This document shows positions 8,741 to 11,191 of a stretch of 64,000 nucleotides of DNA, piece after piece. The notes below the pieces were generated by a model. It searched no databases. It saw only the letters and a list, made by a program, of their open reading frames with translations, and was not told the origin of the DNA. The position numbers and the translations under genes are program-made. The stretch spans positions 1 through 64,000 of the forward strand of contig CAKZTZ010000024.1 in assembly GCA_937921695.1 (NCBI GenBank), read 5' to 3'. Origin of the DNA: an uncultured Sulfolobales archaeon (GTDB lineage Archaea > Thermoproteota > Thermoprotei_A > Sulfolobales > Acidilobaceae). Each line of letters starts with the position of its first letter. Within the stretch, counting starts at the first letter, position 1.

Positions 8741-8818
8741 GCTTAGACCACCAGGGATAACTTAGTTAGATAGCTTATTTAAACACCTTTTTACATTATA
8801 TTATCTGAGGTGGAAACT

Positions 8819-9106
8819 GTGACAACTATCTATGTAGTAAAGAGAGACGGGAGCAAGGAGGAATTCGCCTATGAGAAGATTGTCGTCAGCTGCCTCAAAG
8901 CCGGGGCTCCCCTAGATATTGCCAGGAAGATAGCTAAAATAGTGGAGGCTAAAATATTGGAAAGCGGGGCTGAAGAGGTGACTGCTAGAGACTTAACTAG
9001 GATGGTTCTAGGGCTTCTAAGGAAAGAAAATGAAGAATGGTATAGGAACTGGGTAGTGTTCGATAGAGCGGTTAAGAGGAGGAGGACGGAGGAAGAGTTA
9101 AAATAA
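8819..9106 (+). CDS. ATP-cone domain protein
   Basis: About 95 residues, almost entirely one ATP-cone: YVVKRDGSKEEFAYEKIVVSCLKAG followed by a helical bundle ending EEWYRNWVVFDRAVKRR. ATP-cones bind ATP/dATP and act as allosteric modules in ribonucleotide reductases and the NrdR repressor; a stand-alone cone could regulate another protein or DNA binding, which is inference. The track start GTG 8810 has no ribosome site; GAGGTGG then sits 5 bases before GTG 8819, giving MTTIYVVKRDG, so I use that start. TATA-like TTATTTAAA lies about 40 bases upstream. It converges on the cysteine operon, ending one base before it. Confidence 0.82.
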   Translation: MTTIYVVKRDGSKEEFAYEKIVVSCLKAGAPLDIARKIAKIVEAKILESGAEEVTARDLTRMVLGLLRKENEEWYRNWVVFDRAVKRRRTEEELK

Positions 9107-9107
9107 C

Positions 9108-10292
9108 TTAAGCACTCTTTTTCTCCACCCACTTTTTCATTAAATCCAGGTATTTGAACCCGGTATCAGGCACTATAACTACAACGTCGCCACTCTCCCC
9201 TATCAGGTCTAGAGATTTAGATAAGGCTACTAAAGCTGCTCCCCCTGAGGGTCCTATGAGTAAACCATCCTCCCTCGCTACTTTCCCTACAGCCTCTAAG
9301 GCTTCACCTAGGGTTACATCAACTATTTTAAAATCTTCCGCGATCATAGCTAGCCATATCATGCCCGTCTCGCTCCTCCTAGTTCCGGGTATGTGTTCTC
9401 CGGGGGCTGGCTGGGCCGTTATAGTTTTAAAGGATCCTTTGAAACGCTTCCTAAAATAGAAGTTTATGGCTGACATGTGGCCTGAAGTCCCTATAGACCC
9501 CGCGGCCCCTACAAGCTTGAGGCCTACCGCTCTAGCTTGGTAATCTATTTCTTTAGCAGTAGTTTTTAGGTGGGCTTCGAAGTTTAAGTCGTTCATGAAC
9601 TGGTTAACGTGTATAAGCCCTTCCCTTCTAACATCTTCATATATCCTTGAGAGGAGTTCTACAGTGAGTTCCGCCTCTGTCCTCACAGTTTCAGCCTCCA
9701 TTAATTCTATTACTAGCCTGCCATGCTCCCCAGCCCTCCTGGGCAAATATATTCTAGCCTTGGCCCCGTAACGGGGTGCGACAGCAGCCAGAGCTATGCC
9801 GAAGTTAGCTGAAGAAGCGTCTGCCAGTATTTTACCTTCAACGTTAACTTTCCCCGCTATGCTAGATACTATGTGGACTGCAGGCCTATCTTTTATGCTC
9901 AAACTGAAGGGGTTAAACCATTCAAGTTTAGCCCAGACTCTAAGGCTCTCAGTAGAGAAACTCCTAAGCATAACCATGGGGGTCGGCAGTCCTCTAACAG
10001 CTAGTTCTAGTGGGCTATAGTAAACTCTATGCTGGGGGCCGACTATGTTATCGTAGAAACCCAAGTCTTCCAGGCTCACCCTACACTTCCCAGAACCTAT
10101 AGGTGCATATTTTACTCCGAGCTTCTCAAGAGCCCAATAGAGCTCCAGGCCCTCAACTATGTTAAATTCAGAGTCTACTTCGAGACATCCGCTAACATAG
10201 TCCTCCTCGAGTATAGAACCTATAATGTCGAGGACATCCATTATAGACAATTCTAAAGGAGGCTTTAAGGAGGTTAAAGCTACAAGCTTCAA
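9108..10292 (-). CDS. cysO: O-phospho-L-serine sulfhydrylase (cysteine synthase)
   Basis: 394-residue fold-type II PLP enzyme. It matches the Aeropyrum-type O-phosphoserine sulfhydrylase along its whole length, including an extra ~90-residue N-terminal domain. PLP-lysine motif: EWFNPFSLSIKDRPAV. Phosphate/substrate motifs: DASSANFG, GSIGTSGHMS and IPGTRRSETGM; the PLP-phosphate loop is GPSGGAA, with a VVVIVPDTGFKYLDL C-terminal strand. The reaction is O-phosphoserine plus sulfide giving cysteine plus phosphate, in the cytosol. Its ATG overlaps the upstream OsmC-like stop (ATGA), and two genes upstream lies a serine kinase homologue that would supply O-phosphoserine. Confidence 0.92.
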   Translation of the reverse strand: MKLVALTSLKPPLELSIMDVLDIIGSILEEDYVSGCLEVDSEFNIVEGLELYWALEKLGVKYAPIGSGKCRVSLEDLGFYDNIVGPQHRVYYSPLELAVRGLPTPMVMLRSFSTESLRVWAKLEWFNPFSLSIKDRPAVHIVSSIAGKVNVEGKILADASSANFGIALAAVAPRYGAKARIYLPRRAGEHGRLVIELMEAETVRTEAELTVELLSRIYEDVRREGLIHVNQFMNDLNFEAHLKTTAKEIDYQARAVGLKLVGAAGSIGTSGHMSAINFYFRKRFKGSFKTITAQPAPGEHIPGTRRSETGMIWLAMIAEDFKIVDVTLGEALEAVGKVAREDGLLIGPSGGAALVALSKSLDLIGESGDVVVIVPDTGFKYLDLMKKWVEKKSA

Positions 10293-10660
10293 GGATTCAC
10301 CACCTCAACATTCCTAATCCTATGCTTAAGCATGTTATAAAACACGCAGTTACTCAGACCCTTCAATACTGTTTCCCCGCTAATTGATGCCTTAACCTTG
10401 ACAACAAGATAATCAGCATCTTCCAAGAGCCCGTCTAGAAGAGCGTCCAGGTCAGTGTATAATTCCACAATAACTTCAACCTCTTTGAGACCTGAAGACT
10501 CAGAAATACTCCTAGCAAAACAAGCTGCTAAAACTGAGAGAACACTATCAACTTTAACATCGACAATATTAAGCCTAGCAAAGCTCACATCAACAAGACC
10601 TCCCCTGAGCGAGGCGCCCCCAAACCCAGCCTTTATTACAGCCCTAACCTCTCCCCCCAA
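10289..10660 (-). CDS. OsmC/Ohr-like protein in the cysteine operon
   Basis: 123 residues. A helix reading VLSVLAACFARSIS is followed by the strand EVEVIVEL and, near the C-terminus, by LSNCVFYNMLKHRI. This is the layout of OsmC-type proteins: the first reactive Cys in an '(L)AAC' helix and a second Cys in a later helix ('C-P/V'). OsmC/Ohr proteins reduce organic peroxides with thiols or hydrolyse small thioesters. Here one partner cysteine is C47 and the other about C106. The gene overlaps the serine kinase by 17 bases upstream and the sulfhydrylase by 4 bases downstream, so all three are probably co-translated. The family call is by pattern only. Confidence 0.5.
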   Translation of the reverse strand: MGGEVRAVIKAGFGGASLRGGLVDVSFARLNIVDVKVDSVLSVLAACFARSISESSGLKEVEVIVELYTDLDALLDGLLEDADYLVVKVKASISGETVLKGLSNCVFYNMLKHRIRNVEVVNP

Positions 10661-11009
10661 GCCCCGAGCACCTCAAACTTTCAAGTGGCACGTCAACTCT
10701 AGGTATCTCAAAGCAAACTCTATGCCTACTAGTCTTAGGAGGCATGAGAAGCCCTAAAAGCCCGCTAGCCCTAACCATCTCCTTAGTCACAACCACTCCA
10801 GGCCTCCAGGAAGACACGGAGACACAGCTATCATCATAATCTACTAAGATAGCAGGTACAAGAGAGCAGCCCAGCAGCTTTAAAGCCTCCACCCTATGGT
10901 GGCCGTCTAATATCACCATAGTTTTAGAATCCACTAATATGGGATACTTTAATACCCCATCAACACTTATAACATAAGAGAGCTCGTAAACCTTCTCCTC
11001 AACAACCAT
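10644..11009 (-). CDS. serK: SerK-like free serine kinase (ParB/Srx fold), compact form
   Basis: 121 residues. The nucleotide/catalytic motif ILDGHHRVEALKLLG, the following PAILVDYDD...VSSWRPG, and the C-terminal signature PPKTSRHRVCFEIPRVDVPLESL match Thermococcus SerK and the SbnI family, which phosphorylate free serine to O-phosphoserine. Thermococcal SerK is about twice as long: here the front segment and the middle region between the WRPG strand and the PPKTSRH tail are much reduced. The ATG has AGGAG 7 bases upstream, and there is no earlier in-frame start after the preceding stop. It is first gene of the cysteine operon. The kinase activity is inferred from family and context. Confidence 0.8.
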   Translation of the reverse strand: MVVEEKVYELSYVISVDGVLKYPILVDSKTMVILDGHHRVEALKLLGCSLVPAILVDYDDSCVSVSSWRPGVVVTKEMVRASGLLGLLMPPKTSRHRVCFEIPRVDVPLESLRCSGLGGRG

Positions 11010-11191
11010 CTCATGGCTCCTAAGAGAAGATAAAGCTACAAGCCTAACCCAATAAGCAAATCGAGTTCACCGCTATACACCAAAGGCTTTCTCTAAGACC
11101 TAGGCATATAAGCTTTTCTTTAAACAACGATAGCTAAAGCCCCTTAGGGGTTGAAGCTTGAGTGTTAATAGCTATGGTTGTCTCTCACTAT

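Follow-up and report, generated by a model that had tools for sequence, protein, structure and literature searches.

The window analysed here is a stretch of 64,000 nucleotides from an uncultured archaeon of the family Acidilobaceae (order Sulfolobales); its metagenome-assembled genome comprises 1.39 Mb in 34 contigs and is 86.6% complete. Three genes follow each other on the minus strand in the order serK, OsmC-like gene, cysO (Table 1). They had first been drawn as open reading frames at 10644-11009, 10289-10660 and 9108-10292, with overlaps of 17 bases between serK and the OsmC-like gene and of 4 bases between the OsmC-like gene and cysO. Re-reading of the sequence gave the same frames and overlaps, and the latter suggest that the three genes are co-translated. 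A TATA-like box upstream of serK would place the transcription start near 11081; in an alignment of three relatives, AT-rich elements resembling CTTATATG occur 24-29 nt before the corresponding GGTG.

Table 1. Features at and around the serK-osmC-cysO locus (positions in the window).
Feature	Position	Strand	Remarks
TATA-like box CTTATATG	11105..11112	-	~24 nt before first GGTG; read from sequence
Conserved 5' block GGTGAACTCGATTTGCTTAT	11052..11071	-	17/20 positions identical in four genomes
Possible leader mini-ORF	11044..11070	-	GTG AAC TCG ATT TGC TTA TTG GGT TAG (M-N-S-I-C-...); read from sequence
Predicted short SerK-like free serine kinase, ParB/sulfiredoxin fold	10644..11060	-	N-terminus extended to TTT at 11058-11060
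OsmC-fold protein	10289..10660	-	123 aa; TTG start, GAGGTG 8 nt upstream
CysO-type O-phosphoserine sulfhydrylase, PLP enzyme	9108..10292	-	N-terminal domain (residues about 1-70) that looks like a decayed SerK
CysO N-domain	10080..10292		
Stand-alone ATP-cone domain protein	8810..9106	+	98 aa; convergent with cysO

The three proteins

The first protein had been named as the serine kinase SerK. The NCBIfam SerK model matches it with E=3.8e-13 and 49 bits (cut-off 380 bits). It aligns with SerK to about residue 106 and then again over residues 203-241, and the domain in between is absent; the extended window protein has ~138 aa, while a standard SerK with its middle domain has ~240 aa. With an AlphaFold model of the protein (pLDDT 93.7) the best PDB match in Foldseek was SerK 5x0b (E=2e-9, TM 0.81 (TMq)), followed by SerK 5x0k and 5x0g and then by SbnI. 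The protein carries DGHHR and a C-terminal PKTSRH. Among 19 short SerKs of the order 26 columns are invariant, His-Glu included, and the three motifs DGHHR, His-Glu (E30) and the C-terminal PKT-RH are invariant or nearly so. The frame is under strong purifying selection, with pN of about 0.26-0.28 against pS of about 0.7 in distant genome pairs. Among the PDB entries of SerK are structures of the mutants E30A and E30Q, solved together with either phosphoserine or a nucleotide, and these suggest that Glu30 is catalytic; its equivalent in the extended window protein, Glu17, lies upstream of the ATG used in the first ORF call. The fold and motifs of SerK are confirmed, in a half-length form which is not a full SerK. 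We infer that the protein works like SerK, though it is not filed as a standard member of this family.

The closest studied enzyme type is the ADP-dependent SerK of Thermococcus kodakarensis (TK0378; 5x0b; Pyrococcus homolog 1vk1), with which the window protein shares the ParB-type fold, DGHHR, His-Glu (E30) and PKT-RH. It differs from the Thermococcus enzyme in being half as long, in lacking the domain that spans residues about 107-202, in its place in an operon with cysO, and in a gene which, in this genus, carries no canonical start codon. Mori and colleagues reportedly described an ATP-dependent SerK in Staphylothermus marinus in 2021. In T. kodakarensis the step from serine to O-phosphoserine feeds cysteine synthesis (PMC5120207). 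Makino et al. (2016) found clear SerK homologs in four genera only, and the short form is not described there.

Three genomes of the genus also contain a second, full-length SerK-like gene, which has DGTHR instead of DGHHR and directly adjoins a trpB2-like gene for tryptophan synthase beta (L020 1147-1836 (-), L021 1381-2097 (+), L022 1375-2091 (+)). Since TrpB2 is reported to use phosphoserine, this neighbourhood indicates that phosphoserine may feed tryptophan synthesis too.

The assignment of the third protein to the Aeropyrum-type sulfhydrylases was borne out. A phmmer comparison with the CysO of Aeropyrum pernix (1wkv) gave E=3.6e-102 and homology over residues 50-390. The sequence SLSIKDRP aligns with the PLP Lys of A. 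pernix CysO, and GTRR with its Arg297, the equivalent residue in the window protein being Arg305; Arg297 is the residue named for O-phosphoserine recognition in CysO (PMC5120207). The window protein has all parts of a CysO-type enzyme, namely an N-domain plus a PLP domain, the PLP Lys and the Sep-binding Arg. Furthermore, an hhalign comparison (97.4%, E=1.1e-11) shows homology between the N-terminal ~70 residues of CysO proteins and the short SerK; the DGHHR motif has been lost from the former. In G146 and G147 a single polypeptide consists of a SerK, a second, decayed SerK and a PLP domain (L049 205-2055, L051 1423-3216). Because of this homology and of these fusions, CysO looks like a SerK-PLP fusion in which the SerK part has decayed. 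A literature search found no paper stating so, an absence which is not proof. In comparison with A. pernix CysO, the window gene is encoded together with the kinase that makes its substrate, and the N-terminal domain is here recognised as a decayed SerK domain.

The fold of the middle protein is detectable only by family-level scans and by profile-profile and fold comparison. Single-sequence searches of Pfam, NCBIfam and the PDB with the window protein gave no OsmC match, and a profile search of PDB sequences was negative too. The window protein itself has no match to PF02566; 6 of the 15 members of the family match this profile weakly, and one distant homolog exceeds the Pfam cut-off with 31 bits. 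Comparison of the family with true OsmC proteins of the order by hhalign gave 93.6% and E=2e-7, with both Cys aligned. In a Foldseek search with the AlphaFold model (pLDDT 90) the first 26 matches were nearly all named OsmC/Ohr. The family profile, hhalign and the model thus agree with the first-pass annotation that this protein is OsmC-like, though the single-sequence searches were negative.

Cys47 and Cys105 are invariant in 15 relatives, so that the protein combines an OsmC fold with the two conserved cysteines of OsmC/Ohr proteins. The catalytic Glu of Ohr/OsmC is located about ten residues before the first Cys. It is absent from this position in all 15 family members, and an Asp occurs one residue later in this genus. 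The OsmC/Ohr thiol peroxidases (6mjn, 2bjo, 1nye) have the fold and two cysteines in common with the middle protein; the latter differs from them in that it is shorter, scores below the Pfam cut-off, lacks Glu at the usual place and is found in the context of a cysteine synthesis operon. A thiol or sulfur role, rather than that of a peroxidase, is a tentative assignment, to which we give somewhat less than even odds.

Gene order and the predicted route to cysteine

The order serK-osmC-cysO was found only in this genus of the Acidilobaceae, in four of six genomes; the remaining two yielded no such operon. The survey that had been proposed for this order therefore showed it to be limited to the genus and not general among crenarchaea. 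The widespread arrangement is serK-cysO without the middle gene: among 26 short-SerK loci read outside the genus, 17 have cysO directly downstream, 2 are fused and 7 are unlinked, the last including all five from one other genus. Short serK hence precedes cysO or is fused to it in 19 of the 26 loci, across the order, and the three-gene order is a genus-level variant of this order-wide pair.

The OsmC-like family is present in 25 of 214 genomes of the order. In the other 21 of these its members lie away from serK and cysO where the loci were read, and they neighbour a gene for a ~75-aa Cys-containing protein, a PAPS-reductase-family gene or unrelated genes. The ~75-aa protein beside the OsmC-like gene (L104 540-767, L090 6582-6809, L091 5604-5825) has a C-T-D/S-H-P motif; it is TusA-like by eye and has no Pfam match. 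A palindrome, CTATAACAnTGTTATAG, occurs ahead of the short serK-cysO pair in two further families, as well as ahead of an OsmC gene in G038 (sites at L029 727, L031 1933, L039 1446 and L105 102; further sites exist). It may be the operator of a cysteine or thiol regulon.

In the proposed mechanism the three genes would constitute a cysteine biosynthesis operon, in which the short SerK would make O-phosphoserine and CysO would convert it to cysteine. The active-site motifs of both enzymes, together with the above finding that short SerK and CysO are adjacent or fused in 19 loci outside the genus, make it likely that two steps from serine via O-phosphoserine to cysteine are encoded together. The complete two-step route that had been claimed for this locus hence gains support from motifs and linkage, with the enzyme activities themselves still predicted. 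In the other genomes with an OsmC-like gene this gene is not located beside serK and cysO, which argues against this explanation of the operon.

The 5' end of serK

The unexpected part of the locus is a SerK without a start codon. Homology to SerK does not end at 11009, where the gene had been thought to start, and extends ~17 codons further upstream to 11060; in this stretch YWVRLVALSSLRSHE matches YRVELVPLDALRPHE of another short SerK. The alignment and the AlphaFold model show that an ORF starting at 11009 would miss the first strand (residues 5-9 of the model) and the invariant His-Glu, which is part of the window protein only if translation begins upstream of 11009. The upstream stretch is preceded by a stop codon, and no in-frame ATG, GTG or TTG occurs before 11009. 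The first in-frame canonical starts in four genomes of the genus are codons 20, 62, 12 and 12. For most of the other short SerKs that were read, the frame offers a possible start ahead of the motif. Because a normal start codon is missing in four related genomes, serK must, judging from its sequence, be translated by an unusual route.

Several other causes were considered and rejected. In-frame downstream starts do not serve, because the first one in G005, at codon 62, lies behind DGHHR. A sequencing error does not explain the missing start, since four assemblies agree, one of them at 270x according to its database record. Read-through of the TGA before the conserved block was discarded because in the window genome a TAG stands two codons before this TGA, with no start in the interval. 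Loss of aIF1 is not the reason for odd starts either, as aIF1 is present in all six genomes.

The four genomes have GGTGAAnTCnATTTGCnTAT in common at the 5' end of serK. This block is as conserved as the best active-site stretch: only 10 of 359 coding-region windows reach 17 identities across the four genomes, all of them at PPKTSRH. The exact block pattern has no further site in the genomes searched of the genus or order and occurs only at serK in four genus genomes, which speaks against a wider regulon. A conserved hairpin over the block was rejected because the hairpins predicted for the individual species are not alike, with z ranging from -0.2 to -2.0. A search of viral contigs for more sequences found none.

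In the block a Shine-Dalgarno-like GGTG is followed by ATTTG, which reads as AUU, UUU and UUG in the three frames. The UUU is in the serK frame, at a spacing of 7 from GGTG in all four genomes. The possible leader mini-ORF has a counterpart in the three relatives; serK is read in the +1 frame with respect to it. Of the variable sites, the two ahead of ATTTGC fall on leader third positions and the one behind it on a serK third position; with three variable sites in four genomes, the chance of such a switch is about 1 in 27, calculated post hoc.

Routes into the serK frame

Ribosomes would enter the SerK frame at ATTTGC, which is conserved, the likeliest way being initiation at the in-frame UUU that lies 7 nt after GGTG; the UUG and AUU that overlap this UUU in other frames would keep the kinase scarce. 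We compared this reading with a control set of 363 pairs of orthologs, drawn from G000 and G005 (about 0.8 Mb of each), from which antisense shadow ORFs had been filtered out. Conserved N-termini without a canonical start were otherwise convincing in two genes only, for an M28-type peptidase and for RNase P p30. At the aligned start of p30 the window genome reads TTA, G005 ATT, and G002 and G003 both ATG; G001 and G004 probably use ATC (loci: L194 3224-3853 (+), ortholog L262 2469-3119 (+); L296-L299). The peptidase gene (L196 13093-14262 (-), ortholog L227 1117-2265 (+)) has TTA at a GGTG spacing of 7-8, which overlaps or adjoins the stop of the upstream gene. Since the p30 starts vary at the third base among species, near-cognate initiation differing at this base probably exists in the genus. 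The spacing from GGTG to the start in the orthologs peaks at 7 (26 cases), followed by 6 (18) and 8 (9), and the commonest start is UUG (64/143).

On the basis of these two control genes and of the spacing of 7 in all four genomes, initiation at UUU is our first choice for the serK start, with a probability that falls just short of even. UUU is not known to serve as a natural start codon. UUG, one base later at a spacing of 8, would compete with UUU; aIF1, which rejects poor start codons, is present; and the conserved spacer AAnTCn between GGTG and ATTTGC is unneeded by a simple UUU start.

The next candidate, which we consider unlikely, is a programmed +1 frameshift. Translation would start at GTG 11070-11068, read GTG AAn TCn ATT and shift by +1 at a slow UGC (Cys) codon; the product would be a SerK beginning M-K/N-S-I-A-Y-..., and cysteine shortage would raise SerK. 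All four genomes have the GTG frame, preceded by GGTG at a distance of 6-7 nt, and ATTTGC is precisely the point at which the variable sites pass from third positions of the leader to those of serK. A frame-0 stop follows 2-4 codons after the UGC, skipping of one T joins the two frames, and the codon at the shift site is that for Cys, inside a cysteine operon. A shortage of release factor raises RF2 by such a shift at CUU-UGA. The putative archaeal site shares with this autoregulatory system the NUU-UG- layout, an internal SD-like sequence and a very short frame-0 ORF, but would sense a cysteine codon rather than a stop.

The putative shift site that would join the leader and serK frames is conserved in four genomes; however, other initiation routes fit it too, and the comparison comprises four genomes only, with three variable sites in the block. 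Re-pairing from AUU to UUU is poor, the predicted hairpins differ between species, and a review of archaea describes no cellular +1 frameshift in them (PMC8211752). A simpler route is available through near-cognate starts, as in other genes of the genus, and the p30 and peptidase controls are why we prefer near-cognate initiation to a frameshift. Control of serK by cysteine, in which scarce charged tRNA-Cys would cause a hungry-codon +1 shift into the SerK frame, is more doubtful still. Atkins et al. (2016) noted no known case of hungry-codon frameshifting that yields a functional starvation protein (PMC5009743).

It is quite improbable that translation of the leader ORF is followed by termination and reinitiation at a conserved GTT (the Val of FAYxV), giving a SerK that begins M-R/E-L-.... 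This GTT is invariant and lies near the stop of the leader in each of the four genomes, and putative third-base near-cognate starts occur in overlapping genes of the genus (p30, M28 peptidase), but no Shine-Dalgarno sequence lies ahead of GTT and the leader stop has a different position in the window genome. Initiation at the UUG overlapping UUU (GGTG spacing 8), with an immediate -1 slip into the serK frame, would make use of the dominant start codon, which is conserved here in all four genomes; we rate it as very improbable, because conservation of the UUG frame ends at the start, the next residue being Leu or His, and there is no slippery site behind it. Hardly any weight falls on the idea that SerK is a decaying gene or its missing start an error, so that the operon would make only the OsmC-like protein and CysO, with phosphoserine coming from 3-phosphoglycerate: the second SerK-like gene with DGTHR in three of the genomes would fit it, but the anomaly recurs in four assemblies (including the one at 270x), selection is purifying and the active site invariant, and no second SerK was found in G005, the genome with the latest in-frame start.

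Taken as a whole, a cysteine operon whose SerK frame is entered at ATTTGC, most likely by UUU initiation, is the best explanation of the locus, and one that we consider slightly more probable than all others combined. It predicts a route from serine to cysteine for many crenarchaea in which the kinase is a minimal SerK, only half as large as the enzyme that has been studied and either encoded together with CysO or fused to it. The N-terminal domain of CysO is accounted for as a SerK that has decayed, and an OsmC-fold protein receives a place in cysteine synthesis which experiments can test. With a conserved enzyme frame that has no canonical start in four genomes, either near-cognate initiation in archaea or a frameshift that senses cysteine comes within direct reach of experiment. 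If true, such a frameshift in serK would be the example named as missing in PMC5009743.
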